A stretch of DNA of 52,413 nucleotides from positions 1 through 52,413 of the forward strand of contig CALGYB010000095.1 in the NCBI GenBank assembly GCA_937935075.1. Direction: 5' to 3'. The position numbers were made by a program, and so were the translations under genes. The DNA is from an uncultured Roseiflexus sp. (GTDB lineage: Bacteria > Chloroflexota > Chloroflexia > Chloroflexales > Roseiflexaceae). The stretch's first letter is position 1, and each line of letters begins with the position of its first letter. The notes beneath the pieces are model-generated. The model did not search any database. It had not been told where the DNA came from and worked only from the letters and a program-made list of their open reading frames with translations. Shown piece by piece: positions 34,368 through 44,306 of this stretch.

Positions 34368-34646
34368 AACTATTTGCCCATCGAACGCATCACTATCCTT
34401 CCCCAGGTTCATGATAGGCGCGCGGGCGCACCGGCGTCTCGCCTTGGGAGCGCCGGCGTCTCGCCCGCATGGCCAATAATGCCGAATACTGGAACGCCTG
34501 TGCGATGATTGGGACCGGGGACAGTGTGCGTCTGATCAACGGTCGCGCAGCGGACCTCATACTAATGCGCAGTCATTTAGACAATCATGGTTGTTAAGCA
34601 CATCATCCGGCATCGCCCGGTGAAGCCCGCGCAGGCGGGCCTGGCG

Positions 34647-34877
34647 CCCGTAGCCCGCGGCTTCAGCCGCCGGGCGGACGAGCGGATAGCGGAATACGTA
34701 TTCAACAACCATGATTGCCGGAGCGCTGCGGGCGAACGCCTCCGCTGAGGACGCGAAAGCCCCGCCGGGGTTGCTCATGCCAACTGCGGTCCACGACACG
34801 CCTGCCGGCGCGCGTTGACCGTTGCGCCGTGCCCAACGAACGCGCGAACATCTTGTCTGACCGACGGCGATTAGTAT
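34647..34877 (+). repeat. Long dispersed intergenic repeat, copy 2
   Basis: Matches 24771-24917 at both ends. The about 85 extra bases in the middle include AACAACCATGATTG (34704-34717), which is the inverse of 34582-34595, suggesting a smaller element inserted into the repeat. Confidence 0.8.
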
Positions 34878-35049
34878 CAGAACGAGAACCGGCGGCAACA
34901 AAACGACATATTTCCGTCATTCTCCCCAGAGCCGCACACCCGCCCCTCATCCCTAACCCTCCTAAAACCGTTGCTCCAACAATAATTACGACGTGGTACA
35001 ATAATACCGTCTATACGACAGGTCGCCACTCGTTGGAGGTGCTGCACCG

Positions 35050-35460
35050 ATGCAACCGATAGCCCTAACCCCCGAACTCGTCGCCCGCGCGGGCAAACAT
35101 ATTGCAGCAGCGTTGCGGCGCAATCCAGGAATCGACGCAGCAGCGCTCTGCGCTTTGAACGGTCAGGTGCTGTGGGCAAGCGACCCGGCATTCGAGCGCG
35201 CTGCCCCTTCGATTGCTCGAATCGGGATTATGTCGCTCAAACTGTGGGTCAAGGTGCGCTCGGGTAAACTGGATCGGATTGGACTGGTGACGGGGCAGGG
35301 CACGGTTGATATCATTTTCGTCCCTCCTATCGGTTCGGTGCTGGTTGCCAGCGGGCGCGATGCGGGAAGCGGTTGGCTGGAGAATGAACCGCTGGCGTTA
35401 CTCGAAGCGCTTGGACTACCGGCGCGATCCCCGCTCGTCTCGCCGAATGGACGTCCGTGA
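35050..35460 (+). CDS. Small protein, possibly roadblock/LC7-like
   Basis: 136 residues, not firmly recognised. The layout resembles a roadblock/LC7 (longin-like) fold: an N-terminal helix (ELVARAGKHIAAALRRNPGI), a strand with ALCALNGQVLWASD, a helix with APSIARIGIMSLKLWVKV, then GLVTGQGTVDIIFVPPIGSVLVASGRDAGSG as two strands. Such proteins usually serve small GTPases in polarity or motility, but no GTPase is nearby. GGAGGT lies 10 nt before the ATG. It sits between the suf operon and the Rieske gene on the same strand. Confidence 0.7.
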   Translation: MQPIALTPELVARAGKHIAAALRRNPGIDAAALCALNGQVLWASDPAFERAAPSIARIGIMSLKLWVKVRSGKLDRIGLVTGQGTVDIIFVPPIGSVLVASGRDAGSGWLENEPLALLEALGLPARSPLVSPNGRP

Positions 35461-35587
35461 TCCGCAGTTCGGTTCCGGCGCTATCAGGCGCATTCGCATC
35501 CTGATCTGACAGTCGGATCCGCGCCCGATTCGCTTTTGACCTCTGGCAGCCCGCCATACTTCGTTGTTTTCTGAGGACCTCGCAATC

Positions 35588-35905
35588 ATGGCTGATTTCG
35601 TCAAACTTGCCACTATTCACGATCTGCCCGACGGCGGCATGCGCGCCGTTGAGCATCATGGTCGGCGCATCGCTCTGTTTCGCGTCGGTGACACCGTCTA
35701 TGCCACCGACGATATCTGCTCGCATGACTACGCGGAACTGAGCGATGGGTTCTTCGACTCCGACGACTGCGTCGTCGAGTGCCCGCTGCACGGCTCGCGC
35801 TTCGATGTGCGGACGGGACGCGCACTGACCCTCCCGGCATTCAAACCGATTGATGTCTTCGAGGTGCAACGCCAGGGTGATGATGTGCTGGTGCGGGTCG
35901 GCTGA
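35588..35905 (+). CDS. Rieske [2Fe-2S] ferredoxin-type protein
   Basis: A 105-residue single-domain Rieske protein like the ferredoxin component of aromatic dioxygenases or NirD. Cluster ligands are Cys44 and His46 (DICSHDYAELSDG) and Cys65 and His68 (VVECPLHGSRFD), followed by TGRALTLPAFKPIDVFEV, the usual end. It should be a soluble electron carrier. No oxygenase gene is adjacent, so its partner is unknown. The cluster would be supplied by the SUF system encoded upstream. ATG 35588 (MADFVKL) follows TGAGGA; an upstream in-frame ATG at 35564 has no conserved sequence. Confidence 0.92.
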   Translation: MADFVKLATIHDLPDGGMRAVEHHGRRIALFRVGDTVYATDDICSHDYAELSDGFFDSDDCVVECPLHGSRFDVRTGRALTLPAFKPIDVFEVQRQGDDVLVRVG

Positions 35906-35913
35906 GTGGACGC

Positions 35914-35942
35914 TTGACTCTTTCCCCCTCTGGGCGTACAAT
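35914..35942 (+). promoter_or_regulatory. Strong promoter upstream of the first sulfurtransferase
   Basis: TTGACT (35914-35919), a 17-nt spacer, TACAAT (35937-35942), 52 bp before the ATG at 35995. Confidence 0.7.
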
Positions 35943-35994
35943 ATAGTTGAATAAATTGAGTGGTCTACTTCAGAATATCAGAGGGGAGGTCCTG

Positions 35995-36840
35995 ATGAGT
36001 GGCTACGCTCACCCCGAGGCGCTGGTTGATACCGCATGGGTCGCCGATCACCTGGACGACCCGAAGGTGCGGATTGCCGAGTGTGATGAAGATATTCTGC
36101 TCTACGATCAGGGGCATATTCCTGGCGCCGTCAAGATCGATTGGGTCGGCGAACTCAACGATCCGATCGTGCGTGATTACCTGGATCGTGAACGGTTCGA
36201 GCAGTTGATGGTCTCGAAAGGGATCAGCAACGACACGACGGTGGTGTTCTACGGCGACAAGCATAACTGGTGGGCTACATATGCGCTGTGGGTGTTCAAA
36301 CTGTTTGGTCATCCTGATGTGCGGATCATGAATGGCGGACGCGCCAAATGGATTGCCGAAGGGCGACCGCTGACGCGCACGGTTCCGTCCTACCCGCCAG
36401 GCGAGTACCATGCTCCCGAGCGGAACGATGCGGCCATTCGCGCGTTCCGCGACCAGGTGCTGGCGCATATCCGCCAGCCCGGTACGGCGCTGGTCGATGT
36501 GCGCAGTCCGCAGGAATACACCGGCGAGCGTCTGCACATGCCGGAGTATCCGCAGGAAGGCGCGCTGCGCGGCGGACATATCCCCACGGCGGTCAATATC
36601 CCGTGGGCGAGTGCCGTGCGTGAGGATAGCACCTTCAAGAGCGCCGACGAACTACGCGAACTGTACGTCAGCAAGGGTATTACGCCAGATAAGGATGTGA
36701 TCGCATACTGCCGCATTGGTGAACGGTCCAGTCATACCTGGTTTGTGCTGACCTACCTGCTTGGATATCCGAAAGTGCGCAACTATGATGGCAGCTGGAC
36801 TGAGTGGGGCAATGCGGTTGGTCTGCCAATCGAGAAATAA
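35995..36840 (+). CDS. Thiosulfate sulfurtransferase (tandem rhodanese)
   Basis: 281 residues with two rhodanese domains. The N-terminal inactive domain begins [23 protein letters not shown]. The C-terminal catalytic domain has [27 protein letters not shown] and the active loop [14 protein letters not shown] with Cys239. The CRIGERS loop is the one found in CysA-type thiosulfate sulfurtransferases, distinct from the CGSGVTA loop of 3-mercaptopyruvate enzymes. It moves sulfane sulfur from thiosulfate to an acceptor. GAGGGGAGGT precedes ATG 35995. It overlaps no gene, but sufE follows 5 bp later and so is very likely co-transcribed. Here the acceptor could be SufE or the downstream carrier. Confidence 0.93.
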
Positions 36841-36845
36841 TCCGT

Positions 36846-37304
36846 ATGCCTGCATCAGAAATCCCGCCCGGTTTGCCGCCGCGCCTCCGCGCGATTGTCG
36901 AAGAGTTCCGCGCGGCAGACCGGGCAGAAAAACTGGAATTGCTCCTCGACTACTCCGACCGCCTGCCGCCGTTGCCGGAGGAGTGGCGTAGCAATCGCGC
37001 CGCCATGGAGCAGGTGCACGAGTGTGCCACGCCGGTGTACGCGACGGTGGAGTCACGCGAGGGAGGCCTGACGTTCCACATCGACGTCGCCGAAGAGTCG
37101 CCGACGGTGCGCGGGTATGCTGCGCTGCTGCGCGAAGGGCTGGAAGGCGCCACGCCAGAGATGGTGCTCGCCATTCCGGGCGATTTCTTCTACGCGATGG
37201 GCTTGCAGCACGTGCTATCGCCGCAGCGTTTGAATGGCATCAGTTACCTGCTCGCGTATCTAAAGCGACTCGCAGCGCGCGAATTGGCAAAACAGAGTCC
37301 ATGA
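36846..37304 (+). CDS. sufE: SufE-type sulfur acceptor
   Basis: 152 residues. The SufE/CsdE motif with persulfide Cys60 appears as QVHECATPVYATVE, with upstream YSDRLPPLPEEWR and downstream FHIDVAEESPTVRGYAALLREGL and SPQRLNGISYLLAYLKRLA. SufE takes sulfur from SufS Cys and passes it to SufB. It is unusual to find it beside a rhodanese when sufU is already in the suf operon. The pair with the rhodanese suggests a second route of sulfur into or out of the SUF machinery. ATG 36846 lies 5 bp after the rhodanese stop. Confidence 0.92.
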   Translation: MPASEIPPGLPPRLRAIVEEFRAADRAEKLELLLDYSDRLPPLPEEWRSNRAAMEQVHECATPVYATVESREGGLTFHIDVAEESPTVRGYAALLREGLEGATPEMVLAIPGDFFYAMGLQHVLSPQRLNGISYLLAYLKRLAARELAKQSP

Positions 37305-37502
37305 AGGATGATCCATCCCCTGGCAGGCGGCGCCATCATGAGCGAGCGTTCCATTGGTGCAACGTTCGCGGCGGTTGAGACAATGACCCTGGAGGAGATG
37401 ATCGATCTCCCCGGTCGTGAGCAGTCGCAACGCGGCTGCGCTGCGGATATGGCAGGCGGCGATTGTGACCTATTGGACAGGAACAGTACCGTGATCTCCG
37501 GG

Positions 37503-38456
37503 ATGCTTGATGAACGCATTGATCGCCGTAGCACGCTGGTCGATCTGGTCGGGAATACGCCGCTTCTGCGCCTGACCCGGCTCGATCCCGATCTGTCGCC
37601 TGAGGTTGCGGTGTATGCCAAGGCGGAGTGGTACAACCCCGGCGGTTCGGTCAAGGATCGCCCGGCGCTGTGGATGATCCGCGACGGCGAACGACGCGGT
37701 CTGCTGCGTCCTGGCATGCGCATCGCCGACGCCACAAGCGGCAATACCGGCATCGCCTATGCCACACTTGGCGCTGCGCTTGGTTATCAGGTAACGCTGG
37801 CGCTGCCCGCCAATGCAAGCCCGGAACGGCTGCGCATTCTCCGCTCTCTCGGCGCCGAACTCGTGCTCACCGATCCACTTGAGGGGATGGATGCGGCGAT
37901 CCGCAAGATTCGCGTGCTGGTGCAGGAACATCCGGAACGCTTCTTCTACCCCGATCAGTACAACAATCCGGCCAACCCGCGCGCTCACGAGAAGAGCACC
38001 GGTCCCGAAATCTGGGCGCAGACCGGCGGACAGGTGACGCACTTTGTTGCAGCCCTGGGCACCAGTGGCACATTTATGGGAGTAGGACGCTTCCTGCGCG
38101 CGCAGAACCCGGAGGTGCGACTGTTCGCCGTCCAGCCCGACGGACCCTACCACGCGCTCGAAGGCGTCAAGCATATGGCATCGACGGCGCTGGTTCCGGG
38201 TGTCTACGACCCATCGCTTGCCGATGGCATCATTGAAGTCCGCAGTGAAGAAGCCTTTGCAATGGCGCGACGTCTGGCGCGCACCGAAGGACTGATGGTC
38301 GGCGTCTCCGCTGCCGCCAATGTCGTCGCTGCCCTGCGCGTCGCGCGCGAGCTGCGCCGGGGAGTTGTGGTGACCATTCTGTGCGATGGGGCTGCCAAAT
38401 ATCTCAGCGATCAGTTCTGGGACGACGGCGATGGACGGGATGGCGAGGGCATCTGA
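37503..38456 (+). CDS. cysM: CysM-type cysteine synthase
   Basis: PLP enzyme of fold type II. LVGNTPLLRLTRL is followed by PGGSVKDRPALWMI with the Schiff-base Lys51, then ATSGNTGIAYATLGAALGY and GTSGTFMGVGRFL. YNNPANPRAHEKSTGPEIW and EGVKHMAST lie around the substrate. Sequence and operon (JAMM protease, Ubl, E1) match the CysO-dependent O-phosphoserine sulfhydrylase of actinobacteria. ATG 37503 was chosen because it gives the usual length (317 residues) and Lys51 as in Mycobacterium CysM. The frame is open back to ATG 37308, so starts at 37338 or 37491 (GTG) remain possible and would add up to 65 unconserved residues. Confidence 0.9.
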   Translation: MLDERIDRRSTLVDLVGNTPLLRLTRLDPDLSPEVAVYAKAEWYNPGGSVKDRPALWMIRDGERRGLLRPGMRIADATSGNTGIAYATLGAALGYQVTLALPANASPERLRILRSLGAELVLTDPLEGMDAAIRKIRVLVQEHPERFFYPDQYNNPANPRAHEKSTGPEIWAQTGGQVTHFVAALGTSGTFMGVGRFLRAQNPEVRLFAVQPDGPYHALEGVKHMASTALVPGVYDPSLADGIIEVRSEEAFAMARRLARTEGLMVGVSAAANVVAALRVARELRRGVVVTILCDGAAKYLSDQFWDDGDGRDGEGI

Positions 38457-38463
38457 GCGTTGC

Positions 38464-38577
38464 ACGCGGGAGGGCGTATCCGACCTGGAAGTGTTTCACG
38501 TGAAACACGCATGTTGAATGTTGCACGTGGGAAGGCGCATCCGACCCTTGAGGTCTTCGCCGCTGATCAATGGCTGC
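38464..38577. repeat. Repeated GCACGYGGGARGGCG...ATCCGACC segment around parS
   Basis: Two near copies, GCACGCGGGAGGGCGTATCC (38462-) and GCACGTGGGAAGGCGCATCC (38523-), flank the parS site. The second continues into CCCTTGAGGTCTTCGCCG (38545-38562), which recurs before the second sulfurtransferase at 43198-43215. Confidence 0.65.
38492..38507. promoter_or_regulatory. parS centromere site (TGTTTCACGTGAAACA)
   Basis: A perfect 16-bp palindrome, extending to 18 bp with the outer G/C pair, identical to the bacterial parS consensus bound by ParB. It lies in the 218-bp gap between cysM and the JAMM gene. Chromosomal parS sites usually lie near the replication origin. No parA or parB genes are in this window. 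Confidence 0.85.
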
Positions 38578-38674
38578 CGTGGAACCGCGCCGGCAGAAGA
38601 GTCTTTGCTCCCTGCCAGCCCGTCTCCTGACCGCAAGATTCTTGGAGGGGAATTCTCAACCGGAAAATGCCCGA

Positions 38675-39166
38675 ATGATGATCGTTCTTCCTGACCACGT
38701 TCGTGTCGCCATCGCGCGGCATGCCGAAGAAACCTATCCCAATGAGTGCGTCGGGTTGCTGCTGGGACGGCTCGATGGGGTGCGCACTGAGGCGGAGGAA
38801 GTCTTTCCTGTTCCCAATCGCTGGACGGTTGAGGTGGGGCTTACGCCAACCGACGCGGAACATTCGCTGCGCGACCGCTTCTACCTCGATCCGCGCGACT
38901 ACCTGCGCGCCGAGCGCACCGCGCGCGAACGCGGCCTCGACGTGGTCGGGTGTTACCATTCGCATCCCGACCATCCGGCAGTCCCATCGCCGCGCGATCT
39001 GACCGGCGCCCAGGGCATCGGCGGCGGTTCGCGGTTTGCGTTCCTCATTCAGAGCGTGCGCGAAGGACGCGCTGTCGAACTGACCGCTTGGACGCTGAAC
39101 GATGGCGGCACGCGCTTTGTGGCAGAGGAGACGATCAGGGGTGAGGACGGGGAGGTTGAAGCGTAG
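38675..39166 (+). CDS. mec: JAMM (Mec+/M67) metallopeptidase
   Basis: 164 residues with the JAMM zinc motif: catalytic Glu in NECVGLLLG and H-x-H-x7-S-x2-D as YHSHPDHPAVPSPRD. Mec+ of Mycobacterium hydrolyses the CysO-cysteine adduct to release cysteine. Related JAMM enzymes trim C-terminal extensions from ubiquitin-like carriers. Here both jobs are plausible, because the Ubl protein encoded next ends in GGVR and not in GG. ATGs at 38675 and 38678 are both possible; no strong ribosome binding site is seen. The gene lies after parS and before a repeat cluster that separates it from the carrier gene. Confidence 0.9.
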   Translation: MMIVLPDHVRVAIARHAEETYPNECVGLLLGRLDGVRTEAEEVFPVPNRWTVEVGLTPTDAEHSLRDRFYLDPRDYLRAERTARERGLDVVGCYHSHPDHPAVPSPRDLTGAQGIGGGSRFAFLIQSVREGRAVELTAWTLNDGGTRFVAEETIRGEDGEVEA

Positions 39167-39188
39167 AGACGTTGTGCTGCAATGTCTC
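39166..39188. repeat. Palindrome GAGACGTTG...CAATGTCTC
   Basis: A 9-bp stem with one G-U pair and a 5-nt loop, right after the JAMM stop codon. Related to 180-202. Could serve as a weak terminator. Confidence 0.5.
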
Positions 39189-39231
39189 CACACGGAATCG
39201 CAAAGTACGAAGGTTTGGTCGGTGTGAAAAG

Positions 39232-39334
39232 ACGTGGAGCAGCGGACGTTGGCTTCGACAGGCTCAGCCAACGTCCGCTGCTCGATGGTCGCCACGGGCA
39301 AGCATTGGGCAACATCTGGTTGTTTGCTCTATTA
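39232..39334 (+). repeat. Palindromic element, copy D (left end lost)
   Basis: Perfect 18-bp stem (39237-39254 / 39266-39283) with loop TCGACAGGCTC. The right half GCCACGGGCAAGCATTGGGC and on to GGTTGTTTGCTCTATTAG matches the right half of copy A closely. No left terminal repeat is found. Confidence 0.82.
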
Positions 39335-39349
39335 GTTCTTACACCAGGC

Positions 39350-39376
39350 GGCGGTCAGTCAGACAAGATGTTCGAG
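39350..39376 (-). repeat. Dispersed repeat (CGAACATCTTGTCTGACTGACCGC), inverted copy
   Basis: Reverse complement of the core at 9474, 24881 and 34845. It lies directly after copy D of the palindromic element, as the plus-strand copy lies directly before copy A. Confidence 0.75.
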
Positions 39377-39448
39377 CGCCCGAATTCACGTAGAACAACG
39401 CGCAATGTTCATCAGGAGTATTGCACAAATGCCCGCACATTGGCATTC

Positions 39449-39474
39449 GTTCTTAGTTCTCGGTTCTTGGTTCT
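39449..39474. repeat. GTTCTYR heptamer repeat
   Basis: Units GTTCTTA-GTTCTCG-GTTCTTG-GTTCT just before the ribosome binding site of the sulfur carrier gene. Confidence 0.75.
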
Positions 39475-39487
39475 GCGAGAGGTCACA

Positions 39488-39769
39488 ATGGCAATTACCG
39501 TAACGATCCCAACCGCACTGCGCCAGTACGCTGGCGGGAATGCCAGCATCACGCTGGCGGCTGGTTCTGTGGGGCAGGTTCTGACAGCATTGATTGAACA
39601 GCACCCGCAACTCGGCAAACATCTCTACAACGAGCAGGGAGCGCTGCGCAGCTTCGTCAACATTTATGTTGGCGACGAGGATATTCGCCACCTCCAGGGA
39701 ATCGAAACCCCGGTTCCCGACGGCGAAACCGTCAGCATCATCCCGGCAATCGCCGGCGGCGTTCGGTAG
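39488..39769 (+). CDS. cysO: CysO/MoaD-like ubiquitin-fold sulfur carrier with C-terminal GGVR
   Basis: 93 residues, beta-grasp fold of the ThiS/MoaD/CysO family. It begins ITVTIPTALRQYAGGNASIT, continues VGQVLTALIEQHPQLGKHLY and ends ETVSIIPAIAGGVR. The carrier would be adenylated and thiocarboxylated by the adjacent E1-rhodanese and donate sulfur to CysM. Unlike carriers that end in GG, two residues (VR) follow the diglycine, so a protease must expose it first; the JAMM gene just upstream is the natural candidate. ATG 39488 was chosen because it starts the conserved fold and has AGAGG upstream. The gap before it is full of repeats. Confidence 0.88.
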   Translation: MAITVTIPTALRQYAGGNASITLAAGSVGQVLTALIEQHPQLGKHLYNEQGALRSFVNIYVGDEDIRHLQGIETPVPDGETVSIIPAIAGGVR

Positions 39770-39799
39770 TGTTCAGTCATGTTTGTGGAGCGGAGCGCC

Positions 39800-40951
39800 A
39801 TGGTTTTAGCTTCTCTGTCGAATGAAGAGATCCGTCGGTATTCGCGGCATCTGATCCTGCCTGAGTTTGGTATGGAAGGGCAGCGCAAACTCAAGCAGGG
39901 CAGCGTGCTCCTGATCGGAACCGGCGGGCTTGGCTCGCCGCTGGCGCTGTACCTCGCCGCTGCCGGCGTGGGGCATATTGGCCTGGTTGATTTCGACATC
40001 GTCGACGAAAGCAACCTGCAGCGCCAGATTATTCACGGCACATCCACTCTGGGCATCCGTAAAACCGAGTCGGCGAAAATGCGGCTGCGTGACCTCAATC
40101 CACATATCGACATTGCCACCTACGAGACGCAGATCACATCCGAGAACGCATTCGACCTGATTCGCCCGTATGATGTGGTTGTCGATGGCACAGACAACTT
40201 TCCAACCCGCTATCTGACAAACGATGCCTGTGTCATGCTTGGTAAACCCAATGTCTACGGATCAATCTTCCGCTTTGAAGGGCAGGCGACGGTCTTCTCA
40301 CCGAAGCATGGCGGTCCATGCTACCGCTGCCTCTATCCCGAGCCGCCGCCGCCGGGTCTGGTGCCGAGCTGCGCCGAAGGCGGCGTGCTCGGCGTGCTGC
40401 CCGGCGTCATCGGGACAATCCAGGCGACCGAAGCGATTAAACTGCTCACCGGCATCGGCGAGCCTCTGATTGGCCGGTTGCTGCTCTACGACGCTCTGTC
40501 GATGCGCTTCCGCGAATTGAAACTGCGTCGTAACCCCGATTGCCCGGTGTGCGGCGATCATCCGACCGTGACGGAACTGATTGACTACCAGCAATTCTGC
40601 GGCATCTCATCCGAAGAAGCGCACCGCGACTCAACCATCGACATCATGCCAATCGAAGTCGCGGAATGGTTGCGGAGCGACCATCCGCCCTTCCTGCTCG
40701 ACGTGCGCGAGGCGAATGAGTGGGAGATCTGCCACCTGCCCGGCGCCGTCCGCATTTCGGTCAACGAACTCGCAGAACGGATGAACGAACTCGACAGCGC
40801 CGTCGAAATGGTCGTCTACTGTCGCAGCGGCGTGCGCAGCGCACGCGCCGTGGACCTGCTGCGCCAGGCGGGCTTCCGCAAGGTGAAGAACCTGGCCGGC
40901 GGCATCCTGCGCTGGGCAGACGAGGTAGACCCCAGTATGCCGAAATACTGA
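39800..40951 (+). CDS. moeZ: E1-like adenylyltransferase/sulfurtransferase (MoeB-ThiF fused to rhodanese, MoeZ type)
   Basis: 383 residues. The adenylation domain (1-265) has RYSRHLILPEFG, the nucleotide loop IGTGGLGSPLALYLA, DFDIVDESNLQRQ, DGTDNFPTRYL, zinc cysteines CYRCLYPEPP and CPVCGDHP, and CAEGGVLGVLPGVIG. The rhodanese domain (about 280-383) has LLDVREANEWEICHLPGA and the catalytic Cys in VVYCRSGVRSARAV. It activates the C-terminal glycine of the carrier and converts it to a thiocarboxylate. ATG 39800 follows GTGGAGCGGAG; ATG 39779 would add seven residues. Confidence 0.92.
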   Translation: MVLASLSNEEIRRYSRHLILPEFGMEGQRKLKQGSVLLIGTGGLGSPLALYLAAAGVGHIGLVDFDIVDESNLQRQIIHGTSTLGIRKTESAKMRLRDLNPHIDIATYETQITSENAFDLIRPYDVVVDGTDNFPTRYLTNDACVMLGKPNVYGSIFRFEGQATVFSPKHGGPCYRCLYPEPPPPGLVPSCAEGGVLGVLPGVIGTIQATEAIKLLTGIGEPLIGRLLLYDALSMRFRELKLRRNPDCPVCGDHPTVTELIDYQQFCGISSEEAHRDSTIDIMPIEVAEWLRSDHPPFLLDVREANEWEICHLPGAVRISVNELAERMNELDSAVEMVVYCRSGVRSARAVDLLRQAGFRKVKNLAGGILRWADEVDPSMPKY

Positions 40952-40953
40952 GG

Positions 40954-40982
40954 TTGGCATTCCGCCGCGCTGATGCTATAAT
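40954..40982 (+). promoter_or_regulatory. Promoter of secG
   Basis: TTGGCA (40954-40959), 17-nt spacer, TATAAT (40977-40982), about 40 bp before the secG GTG. Confidence 0.75.
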
Positions 40983-41021
40983 ACCGCCCTGTAATCGGAA
41001 GTTGAAAAGCAGGACGAAAAC

Positions 41022-41231
41022 GTGGAAATCGCTCTGTATACCGCTCTTATTATCGTCAGCGCGGCATTGACCTTTCTCGTCGTTGTGCAGGGGCGCACCG
41101 CCGGTCTGCAACAGCGCGATACCATCTACCGCACGAAACGCGGCATCGAAAAGACAATGCATCAGGCAACGATTGCACTGGCAGTCGTGTTTCTGCTGCT
41201 GGCGCTGATTGCCAGCCTGCCAATCTGGTGA
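41022..41231 (+). CDS. secG: Preprotein translocase subunit SecG
   Basis: A 69-residue two-helix membrane protein. Helix 1 is LYTALIIVSAALTFLVVVQG and helix 2 is TIALAVVFLLLALIASLPIW. The loop between them, QGRTAGLQQRDTIYRTKRGIEK, is typical of SecG, which assists SecYE channel cycling with SecA. The start is GTG 41022. The short length and the strong own promoter are normal. No other sec genes are near. Confidence 0.85.
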   Translation: MEIALYTALIIVSAALTFLVVVQGRTAGLQQRDTIYRTKRGIEKTMHQATIALAVVFLLLALIASLPIW

Positions 41232-41366
41232 TATCGATGCTTCGCCGCAAGGACAGGTTCCCTATCGACAGAACCGCGCGAGCGTCAGCCTGCAGGCGCT
41301 CGCGCCTCACAGTCGCGGCTGCGCCTGCCGTTCAGGGCGTGTGCCGTCGCTCTCCTTGCTAAGCCC

Positions 41367-43037
41367 ATGGCACGCCGCATTCGCTGGCAAATCCTGATAG
41401 CAGCAATCAGTACGCTCACGGTGCTCCTGCTTATGAGTTACCTGGCGCTGACCCGCGCATCGGTCGCGCGCCCCATGGCAGGCGGCGATTACGTCGAAGG
41501 GGTTGTCGGCGCACCGCTGCATCTCAATCCACTGCTGGTCGATCCTGCCGCCGATCCCATCGCTGCCGATCTCCATCGCCTGATCTTCGAAGGATTGACG
41601 CGCCCCGGTCCAGATGGACTTCCTATGCCGGCGCTCGCGGAATCCTGGACGGTCGATGACAGTGGGACGGTGTATACCTTTACCCTGCGCAGTGGCGTCG
41701 CCTGGCACGACGGCGCACCTGTGACCGTCGATGATGTGCTGTTTACCTTCCGCGCAGTACAGGGACCGGCATTTGCCGGTGATCAGAACGTCGCCGCCTT
41801 CTGGCGCACCGTGCTGGTTGATCGCGCCGGAGAGCGCAGCGTCAGTTTTCGGCTAGAGACCCCCTTTGCACCCTTTCTACGGCTGACCGGCTTCCCGATT
41901 CTGCCAGCGCACCTGTTGCGCGATGTGCCGCCGGAACAGTGGGAGGCGACCGCCTTCAACCAAATGCCGGTCGGCGCCGGTCCGTACCAATTGATCGAAG
42001 TGGATGATCAGCATGCGTTGTTGCGCGCCAATCCTTTCTACTTTGGATCACCGCCGTTTATCGACACGATTGAACTGCGTTTTTTTCGCACCGAACAGGA
42101 AGCGCTTGCAGCCCTGACACGCGGCGAGATCCAGGGGCTGGCATTCCTCAGCACAAGTGCATTGGCGGACGTGACCCTGCCGCGTGGCGTGGTGCGGCGC
42201 CAGGCGCTGTTGGATGCATGCACTGTTCTGACCTTCAACCTGCGTGACGGCTCGCTTGCGGAGATCGGGGTGCGCCGCGCTCTGGCGATCGCGCTCGACA
42301 AAGACGCACTAATTGCTGGAGTGTTGAATAATCAGGTCAAGCGTCTCGACACACCGATCCTGCACGGGTGGTGGGCTGAGTCGCCGGACGTGGGGTGGTA
42401 CGAACCCGATCCTGCACGGGCGGCATCTGCGCTCGAGGCGCTGGGATACGCGGTTGGCGCCGATGGCGTTCGCGCGCGAGACGGTCAACCGCTCGTCTTC
42501 AACCTGCTGACCGACAATTCGCCAAAACGGCGCGCCGTGGCGGAAGAGATCGCTCGTCAGTGGAGCGCCATCGGCGTGCGCACCGTGATCGAACAGATCG
42601 AGTCTGGCGATTTACAGCGCCGGCTGGAAACGCACAACTTCACCATGGCGCTGCATGGCTGGCAGCGGCTCGGTTCCGACCCCGACGTCTTCGAACTCTG
42701 GCATTCGAGCCAGGCGGAGCGTGGACGGAACTATGCCGGGCTTTCAGACGCCGATATTGACGAACTCCTTTACACCGCGCGCACGATCTACGACATTACC
42801 GACCGCGCCGCGCTCTACGGCGAATTTCAGCAACGCTGGGTCGATCTCGCGCCGGGGATCATGCTCTATCAGCCGTTCCTTATTCACGCTACCGTCGCTG
42901 ACCTTGGCGACACAATCGCCCTCGCGCCCGACGAAACGGTTGCGCTGCGCATGATTATTGGACGCGAGGGGCGCTTCGCCAATGTCAATCGCTGGTATTT
43001 GCGCAGTGACCGTGAGATCCGCGGCGACCTGCGGTGA
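41367..43037 (+). CDS. Extracellular solute-binding protein family 5 (oligopeptide/nickel type)
   Basis: 556 residues. An N-terminal anchor (RIRWQILIAAISTLTVLLLMSYLAL) without a lipobox cysteine precedes an SBP_bac_5 domain: LNPLLVDPAADPIAADLHRLIFEGL, LAESWTVDDSGTVYTFTLRSGVAWHDGAPVTVDDV, ALLRANPFYF and GVRRALAIALDKDALI. It probably binds peptides or metal chelates at the outer face of the membrane for an ABC importer, but no permease or ATPase genes adjoin it, so it may work with transporters encoded elsewhere. A heptamer array begins within 10 bp of its stop. Confidence 0.88.
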   Translation: MARRIRWQILIAAISTLTVLLLMSYLALTRASVARPMAGGDYVEGVVGAPLHLNPLLVDPAADPIAADLHRLIFEGLTRPGPDGLPMPALAESWTVDDSGTVYTFTLRSGVAWHDGAPVTVDDVLFTFRAVQGPAFAGDQNVAAFWRTVLVDRAGERSVSFRLETPFAPFLRLTGFPILPAHLLRDVPPEQWEATAFNQMPVGAGPYQLIEVDDQHALLRANPFYFGSPPFIDTIELRFFRTEQEALAALTRGEIQGLAFLSTSALADVTLPRGVVRRQALLDACTVLTFNLRDGSLAEIGVRRALAIALDKDALIAGVLNNQVKRLDTPILHGWWAESPDVGWYEPDPARAASALEALGYAVGADGVRARDGQPLVFNLLTDNSPKRRAVAEEIARQWSAIGVRTVIEQIESGDLQRRLETHNFTMALHGWQRLGSDPDVFELWHSSQAERGRNYAGLSDADIDELLYTARTIYDITDRAALYGEFQQRWVDLAPGIMLYQPFLIHATVADLGDTIALAPDETVALRMIIGREGRFANVNRWYLRSDREIRGDLR

Positions 43038-43041
43038 ACGG

Positions 43042-43178
43042 TATGAGGCGAGAGGTGTGAGGCGAGAGGCGAGAGGCAAGGGGCGAGAGGTGTGAGGCGA
43101 GAGGCGAGAGGTGTGAGGCGAGAGGCGAGAGGCAAGGGGCGAGAGGTGTGAGGCGAGAGGTGTAAGGCAGGAGGGTTG
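43042..43178. repeat. Heptanucleotide array (GAGGYGW type)
   Basis: Units GAGGCGA, GAGAGGT, GTGAGGC and GCAAGGG in a 7-nt register, directly after the solute-binding protein gene. Same family as at 117, 8002 and 17832. Confidence 0.85.
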
Positions 43179-43300
43179 CAGGTGAGAATATACCCGACCC
43201 TTGAAGTCTTCGCCGTTAATCGATTGCTGCGGCCGAACCTCATCAGGGGGCGCTTCTGGCTCTCGGTCCGAACGTATGCCGACCTCGAGGGACTTCAAGT

Positions 43301-44167
43301 ATGACTACTGACCTCCTCGTCTCTCCCGCATGGCTCGCGGATGGCCTGAATGATCCGCATATCCGCATCGCCGATCTGCGCTGGTATCTGCTGGAGCCGG
43401 GGCGTGGACGCACGGAGTATCTGAAGGCGCACATTCCCAGAGCCGTTTATCTGGATATCGACACCGATCTTGCGGCTCCGCCGTTCCAGGGACCGGGACG
43501 CCATCCCATCCCGTCGCCAGAAGCGTTCGCCGCTGTCGCATCGCGCGCCGGGATTGGTCCTGCAACCCACGTTATCGCCTACGACAGCGTTGGAGGCGCG
43601 TATGCGGCGCGTCTCTGGTGGTTGCTGCGCTACTTCGGGCATGAGCGCGTATCGCTCCTCGACGGCGGCTGGCCTGCATGGGTTGCTGCCGGTTTGCCGG
43701 TTGAAGCAGGCGAAGTGATGCCGCCGCCAGCCGTATTCATCCCGCGCCCGAATCCGGCGATGGTGGCGGATGCTGATGCGGTTGATGCGCTGCGCCGCGA
43801 TCCGCGCGCACTGATCCTCGATGTGCGCGCTACGGAACGCTACCGGGGAATCGCCGAACCGCTCGACCCGCGCGCAGGTCATATTCCGGGAGCAGTGTCT
43901 GCGCCGTACACCGACAATGTCGATGCTGAAGGGCGAATGCTTCCGGTAGAGACGCTGAGAGTGCGCTACGCCGCGCTTGGCGCTGATCACGCCGAAACCA
44001 TTGTGTGCTACTGCGGCTCCGGCGTTACCGCCGCGCACACTATCCTGGCGCTCGAACGCGCAGGCTGGAAGAACACGCGCCTCTACGAAGGCTCCTGGAG
44101 CGACTGGTCACGCGATCCTTCCCGCCCCGCTGCAACCGGATCGGAACCGTGGGGCGGTGAAGGTTGA
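43301..44167 (+). CDS. sseA: 3-mercaptopyruvate-type sulfurtransferase (tandem rhodanese)
   Basis: 288 residues with two rhodanese domains. Domain 1 starts VSPAWLADGLNDPHIRIADLRW and has VIAYDSVGGAYAARLWWLLRYFGH. Domain 2 has LILDVRATERYRG, AGHIPGAVSAPYTDN and the active loop VCYCGSGVTAAH with Cys238. The CGSGVTA loop is the signature of 3-mercaptopyruvate sulfurtransferases, so this enzyme differs in likely donor from the CRIGERS rhodanese at 36 kb. GAGGGA lies about 10 nt before the ATG. It is alone on its transcript as far as can be seen, and the T-box leader of ileS follows. Confidence 0.9.
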   Translation: MTTDLLVSPAWLADGLNDPHIRIADLRWYLLEPGRGRTEYLKAHIPRAVYLDIDTDLAAPPFQGPGRHPIPSPEAFAAVASRAGIGPATHVIAYDSVGGAYAARLWWLLRYFGHERVSLLDGGWPAWVAAGLPVEAGEVMPPPAVFIPRPNPAMVADADAVDALRRDPRALILDVRATERYRGIAEPLDPRAGHIPGAVSAPYTDNVDAEGRMLPVETLRVRYAALGADHAETIVCYCGSGVTAAHTILALERAGWKNTRLYEGSWSDWSRDPSRPAATGSEPWGGEG

Positions 44168-44270
44168 AGACCTGCCCGACCCCTGCGGATGTGACTGTCA
44201 CCATCCTGGCTCGCGTCCCGCCAGGGGCAGGCAGGAAACGTGCGCGATGTCGGTCGCCGTGAGGCGCCCG

Positions 44271-44297
44271 GTTCTCAGTTCTCAGTTCTTGGTTCTA
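44271..44297. repeat. GTTCTYR heptamer repeat
   Basis: GTTCTCA-GTTCTCA-GTTCTTG-GTTCTAT runs directly into the extended -10 box of the ileS T-box transcript. Confidence 0.75.
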
Positions 44298-44306
44298 TGG
44301 TATAAT
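44298..44306 (+). promoter_or_regulatory. Extended -10 promoter of the ileS T-box transcript
   Basis: TGG-TATAAT at 44298-44306 places the transcription start near 44313, just before T-box stem I. The region of the -35 box is occupied by the GTTCTYR repeat. Confidence 0.65.

Follow-up and report, generated by a model that had tools for sequence, protein, structure and literature searches.

A CysO-like sulfur carrier that continues past its diglycine in Roseiflexus, and its predicted trimming by a neighbouring JAMM peptidase

To our knowledge, all sulfur carriers studied so far require a C-terminal Gly-Gly for adenylation. How, then, could a carrier be used that is encoded with residues beyond it? 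The question is raised by a gene at 39488-39769 of a 52,413-nucleotide stretch from an uncultured Roseiflexus sp. (contig CALGYB010000095.1), the whole of which we call the window. A first-pass annotation had read the product as ending in IAGGVR, two residues past the diglycine, with an intact HxHx7SxxD JAMM peptidase encoded upstream and an E1-rhodanese downstream; translation of the gene (C-terminus ...SIIPAIAGGVR, then stop), both neighbouring reading frames and the motif itself agree with this. It had also proposed protease maturation at the diglycine, and that the same JAMM may later release cysteine. Comparison with about 200 related genes strongly supports the first of these proposals, through hypervariable tails, fusions, a signature at the residue after the diglycine (P1') and JAMM-less genomes whose carriers end exactly in GG.

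The operon and its capped carrier

The operon encodes, in order, a Rieske protein, a tandem rhodanese, SufE, a CysM-like synthase, the JAMM, the carrier, the E1-rhodanese and SecG, with these features:

35947-36840, + strand: tandem-rhodanese sulfurtransferase, 3-mercaptopyruvate sulfurtransferase-like (profile matches)
36804-37304, + strand: SufE-family protein, upstream of the CysM-like gene and in the same direction (profile match)
37308-38456, + strand: CysM-like cysteine synthase, a PLP enzyme (homology begins near residue 75)
38675-39166, + strand: JAMM/MPN+ metallopeptidase, Mec+-like, upstream of the carrier (Prok-JAB 83 bits; motif intact)
39488-39769, + strand: CysO-like pro-sulfur carrier, 93 aa, ending Gly-Gly-Val-Arg-stop (ORF translation, Pfam, structure-sequence match)
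39755-39760, + strand: invariant Gly-Gly, G90-G91 (invariance in alignments, P1' signature)
39761-39766, + strand: Val-Arg cap, predicted to be removed (tail differs between sister genomes)
39767-39769, + strand: carrier stop, TAG
39779-40951, + strand: E1-like adenylyltransferase with C-terminal rhodanese (ThiF 283 bits, Rhodanese 69 bits)

The carrier matches the ThiS-family profile (Pfam ThiS, 44.6 bits). Its best solved relative is Mycobacterium tuberculosis CysO (3dwg_C; 68.7 bits, E 3e-18), together with a ThiS/MoaD-family protein (4n6e_B; E about 3e-18), both aligning over the full length and each reaching its last GG, as expected of a CysO-group beta-grasp carrier. Where the CysO route has an exact Gly-Gly C-terminus, however, the window carrier has GGVR, and in its post-GG residues and clustered JAMM gene it resembles the capped carriers of the QbsE, PtmS2 and HcyS type. 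It has its own stop and is not a carrier-enzyme polyprotein of the MoaX/DR2607 type, although some relatives are fused. Cleavage is predicted directly after G91, which would then become the adenylation site.

The peptidase contains HSHPDHPAVPSPRD, an intact HxHx7SxxD motif that is kept in all 146 distinct JAMM relatives collected. E24, H95, H97, S105 and D108 are invariant among 31 aligned JAMMs, and the window protein thus has the glutamate and HxHx7SxxD zinc site of JAMM/MPN+ enzymes. Its structure model (pLDDT 91) adopts the MPN fold, with PfJAMM1 (5ld9) as the closest solved structure (Z 19.5, rmsd 1.6 over 129 residues) and SAMP2-bound PfJAMM1, DSY2949 and CsRpn11:Ub also close. No other JAMM in the genome scores above cut-off, and this makes the window JAMM the best candidate for a trimming enzyme. 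The same genome encodes two MoaD-MoaE fusions with an internal GG (G000:C40, locus L001; G000:C33, locus L003), and here too it is the only above-cut-off JAMM that could act as the cutting enzyme. A second carrier matching the CysO-like query (G000:C161, locus L002) ends exactly in GG.

The cysteine synthase linked to this pair, as in the CysO-CysM-Mec+ system, scores 356 bits against TIGR01138, under the 394-bit cut-off, and is nearer to the CysM of E. coli than to that of M. tuberculosis. In MoeZR-type E1 proteins the second CXXC motif is missing and the first reads NYRD (PMC3227635), whereas the window E1 has both (CYRC and CPVC) and, judged by them, is MoeBR-like and not MoeZR-like. The SufE-family protein may have a part in the pathway. 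A second tandem-rhodanese sulfurtransferase (43301-44167) lies on the far side of the operon from the one at 35947-36840, and the flanking pair are possible persulfide donors for the E1-rhodanese. The 321-nt gap between JAMM and carrier holds a perfect inverted repeat (39237-39283; 18-nt arms, 11-nt loop), present in one copy within the window and perhaps an attenuator or a small mobile repeat. An interspersed repeat at about 34587-34740 and 43030-43188 matches dozens of sites in the sister genome G004.

Tails, fusions and the residue after the diglycine

These genes recur in unchanged order in five more genomes, four from the genus and one from the family, and there the diglycine is followed by VRL, ARS, V, I and VLDGAR. 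In the closest three genomes the stop codon has shifted: the window reads GTT CGG TAG, its sisters GTC CGG TTA TAA and GCC CGG TCG TGA. Throughout genus, family and order, GG is invariant and what follows is VR, VRL, ARS, V, I, VLDGAR, MR, SC, VVRDA, GAV, N, K, INQ, SYV, GRS, GRL or nothing, with capped carriers in the genus and in the majority of independent family genomes. When close relatives with a JAMM nearby were compared in 36 disjoint pairs of 80-99% core identity, tails were unlike in 29 and of unlike length in 14; the last ten core residues were 98.6% identical. The gene order CysM-JAMM-carrier-E1 is kept in genus, family and order and across phyla. The first-pass annotation had suggested aligning related Chloroflexota carriers to see whether a two-residue tail accompanies JAMM genes: tails and JAMM genes do occur together, but tail length ranges from 0 to 50 residues, only the diglycine is conserved, and the idea of a tail fixed at two residues, as in QbsE, was rejected. 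Its caveat that a sequencing error might hide a GG-stop does not apply, nor does an assembly error account for the tail, since sister genomes with the same gene order hold other tails after the invariant GG. Near a JAMM, tails are mostly of 1-5 residues, less than expected from a random reading frame, and their length thus seems limited while their sequence is not. A tail is also not required, as M. tuberculosis CysO and 13 carriers with a nearby JAMM end at GG.

Two further carrier groups were seen along the way. Ten operons encode two carriers (L216, L218, L219, L224, L227, L244, L245, L252, L258 and L273), one ending in LIPSIAGG or similar, capped or not, and the other in an uncapped LMASAAGG or similar, the latter possibly a specialised partner. 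Carrier-like paralogs of family group f2 (L032-L037) end in IVPEGDL, IVPEGSM or similar and, lacking the diglycine, are probably not sulfur carriers.

Fusions were sought in 80 loci of other genomes, from Chloroflexota, Acidobacteriota, Ignavibacteriales, Gemmatimonadetes, a Kiritimatiellae, a Hydrogenedentes and a Desulfovibrio. The carrier is joined in frame to the E1-rhodanese in 23 of these 80, and the loci together with the Chloroflexota set yield 36 carrier-E1 fusions after duplicate removal. One carrier is joined in frame past AMAGG to CysM (L222:2656-3876, - strand), where a JAMM lies some 1.3 kb downstream from the start of the carrier, and another, inside a CysM-JAMM locus, to DUF4395 (L188:3431-4294, + strand), a hydrophobic part that is probably a membrane domain. 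A-G-G is invariant in 19 aligned fusions, the most variable stretch starting directly after it. In the AlphaFold2 model of the L080 fusion, junction residues 86-97 have pLDDT under 50 with ordered domains either side, and the junction is thus modelled as disordered between folded domains. A quick E1 tree requires 12 changes between fused and split states, at least five of them on starred branches. All 38 fusions come from JAMM-bearing genomes, 32 with the JAMM within the locus and six with it elsewhere in the genome. The internal glycine of a carrier cannot be adenylated unless the chain is cut, and carrier-fusion loci therefore need an endopeptidase.

If a peptidase cuts after GG, the residue at P1' may bear its mark. 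Across 174 distinct capped or fused carriers, the residues at P1' include A, S, R, V, G, I, T, N and L. Proline is absent there (0/174) against 36/454 at P2'-P6' (Fisher p 6e-6), and likewise 0/136 against 77/799 in untranslated in-frame post-stop codons (p 3e-6), both p values being optimistic because rows are related. With one row per 70%-identity cluster the counts are 0/68 and 16/185 (p 0.006); at 60% clustering (37 rows) the proline depletion is not significant. Asp or Glu occurs in 4/174 against 53/454 at P2'-P6', and aromatic residues or His in 1/136 against 82/799 post-stop codons; the proline test was expected beforehand, these two depletions were spotted post hoc. Fusions show the same bias (Pro 0/36). 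Mutational access, proline being more than one step from a stop codon, is insufficient as a cause, since the same holds for Ala, Val, Ile, Thr and Asn, and Ala is the commonest P1' residue (42/174). The exclusion of Pro and rarity of Asp/Glu indicate selection at this site. The archaeal JAMM CsRpn11 cuts pro-ubiquitin exactly after GG, and P1' Glu abolishes and P1' Gly speeds cleavage (PMC6043591); the bias of the carriers fits these mutants.

JAMM genes and carrier ends across Chloroflexota

ThiS failed as an uncapped control, as it is capped or joined to a further domain in some JAMM genomes, and we hence compared with genomes in which JAMM is missing. A JAMM search of 300 Chloroflexota genomes left a few that had carriers and no clear JAMM. 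Ten of these genomes, drawn from five family groups, encode 16 ThiS-family carriers (MoaD-like, ThiS-like and CysO-like), every one of which ends exactly in GG. Exceptions are two JAMM-less MAGs, G243 and G283, with capped or fused carriers and also MoaD-MoaE fusions; they are 91-93% complete, and JAMM is present in other genomes of their genera. In G177 the carrier ends in GA and the JAMM match is borderline; G157, contaminated and with no clear JAMM, encodes a carrier ending exactly in GG and a capped one. A genome-level table of JAMM and caps gave 15/17 versus 2/12 (p 3e-4) with kinship ignored and G157, G177, G004 and G008 omitted. JAMM is not adjacent to the capped carrier in many JAMM genomes. 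Where a JAMM is present, genomes of the same order mostly encode MoaD joined to MoaE; in family group f3, without a strong JAMM, MoaD is unfused and ends in GG. Genome G004, of the same genus, was considered as a natural mutant without JAMM and rejected: the stretch 34500-44300 used as query meets only short repeat-like pieces there, so that the locus looks like an assembly gap. Taken together, the P1' results, the exact-GG ends of JAMM-less genomes and the sole above-cut-off JAMM of the window's genome, with its two MoaD-MoaE fusions, favour endoproteolysis after GG.

A trimming route, its rivals and its meaning

We consider it probable that the JAMM both trims the carrier and later frees cysteine from it. 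The 39488 gene product would be the pro-form of a CysO-type carrier, and the JAMM of the same operon would hydrolyse the bond after the second glycine, with loss of Val-Arg. By homology with MoeZ/MoeB, the E1-rhodanese would adenylate the exposed glycine carboxylate and make it a thiocarboxylate. As in M. tuberculosis CysO/CysM/Mec+, CysM would then pass the sulfur to activated serine, giving carrier-Cys, which the JAMM would hydrolyse to cysteine and regenerated carrier-GG. Each carrier molecule would need trimming a single time and release in every cycle, with the same Gly-X bond cut in either step. Since the JAMM would remove anything after GG, the stop position would be loosely constrained and fusions to E1, CysM or MoaE possible. 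The trimming step is well supported by the sequence comparisons; release by the JAMM, with cysteine as the product, is by gene order and by homology to the mycobacterial route the most likely outcome.

The closest parallel, CysO-CysM-Mec+-MoeZR of M. tuberculosis (PMC3227635; 3dwg), has a homologous carrier, cysteine synthase, JAMM and E1-rhodanese, and Mec+ cleaves after the last glycine of the carrier (PMC3227635). CysO, however, ends in GG and has no trimming step, MoeZR is without the two CXXC motifs, and the window CysM has its nearer relative in E. coli; the window system thus looks like one of the CysO/Mec+ kind plus a maturation step. Capped carriers with a JAMM are known in QbsE/QbsD (thioquinolobactin) and in PtmS2 (cap MV, with PtmS1) and PtmS3 (cap C) (PMC6006322). 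These share with the window carrier post-GG residues, a clustered JAMM gene and the need for a protease to expose GG (PMC6006322), but these systems feed natural-product thioacids, whereas the window operon has a cysteine synthase. DRJAMM cuts a MoaD-MoaE fusion of Deinococcus (PMC8832034), and archaeal substrates include pro-ubiquitin with CsRpn11 and SAMP precursors with CsJAMM (PMC6043591); in each, as proposed here, a C-terminally extended beta-grasp protein is cut after GG and P1' matters, although carriers and pathways differ. JAMM removal of caps or fused partners is therefore already established or assumed elsewhere (QbsD, PtmS, DRJAMM, CsRpn11, CsJAMM).

The principle of a JAMM that trims and then releases is not new either. 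In Wolinella succinogenes, one JAMM, HcyD, reportedly trims the carrier HcyS-Ala and later frees the amino acid from the adduct (Krishnamoorthy and Begley 2011). The likeness to our proposal lies in this dual role; the HcyS route yields homocysteine via MetY and has a one-residue cap, and with a CysM-type synthase in place of MetY we expect cysteine in the window route. The operon itself corresponds to type 4c of Iyer et al. 2006, which includes Chloroflexus and has the same four genes (ThiS/MoaD, E1, JAB and cysteine synthase); in the excerpted text of that paper, the JAB is suggested to free ThiS/MoaD fused to other proteins, an E1-thioester or protein-conjugation role is favoured for the operon, and we found no caps, carrier-E1 or carrier-CysM fusions or P1' signature (PMC1779556). 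In the literature consulted we likewise found no precedent for general capping of CysO-type carriers, carrier-E1/CysM polyproteins, the P1' rule or the contrast with JAMM-less genomes, which is weak evidence of novelty.

Could another cellular peptidase remove the cap and the JAMM, like Mec+, serve only to free cysteine from carrier-Cys? CysO, the substrate of Mec+, needs no trimming (3dwg_C ends in GG), and for many capped carriers the fetched locus contains no JAMM. Yet JAMM-less Chloroflexota tolerate no caps (16/16 exact GG); characterised JAMMs cleave after GG (PMC6043591, PMC8832034), and carrier-E1 fusions are beyond the reach of exopeptidases, which together make this account improbable. 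We find it even harder to credit that the tail is a mistake without consequence (a slipped stop codon or an assembly error) or that the E1 activates the uncut form anyway. The cap sequence is indeed not conserved, but most independent genomes of the family carry caps, the P1' pattern speaks for selection on the site, GG stays invariant in E1 fusions and the carriers studied need that end to be free for adenylation; we give this account very little weight.

A doubt of another kind concerns the product. Trimming could be as we propose and still lead to no free cysteine, the carrier serving other thiolations or acting as a SAMP-like protein modifier that the JAMM would deconjugate. Against SAMP1 the carrier reaches 59.4 bits (cut-off 60), and against desampylase the JAMM reaches 50 bits (cut-off 130). 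The E. coli affinity of the window CysM points the same way, as does the MoeBR mark of the window E1, given that M. tuberculosis MoeBR, with both CXXC motifs, does not activate CysO (PMC3227635). Against this, the operon includes a cysteine synthase in nearly all relatives, one carrier is fused to CysM, and CysO is the carrier's best solved relative, so that we regard the absence of a cysteine product as unlikely.

If trimming and release by one JAMM hold, carrier-route cysteine synthesis across much of Chloroflexota and Acidobacteriota would involve maturation of a ubiquitin-like kind, and JAMM cleavage could be read out in silico from the P1' rule. The polyproteins that join a carrier to E1 or CysM would correspond, in bacteria, to ubiquitin fusions, cut at one conserved GG, and annotating the fused form as a plain MoeB adenylyltransferase overlooks the carrier. 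More tentatively, and in our view less probably than not, this lineage's single JAMM may mature several carriers (capped CysO, MoaD-MoaE and, in related genomes, E1/CysM polyproteins and ThiS) besides freeing cysteine. One enzyme would then gate the sulfur supply of cysteine, molybdenum cofactor and thiamin, and its presence would let carrier genes lose their stop codon and fuse.
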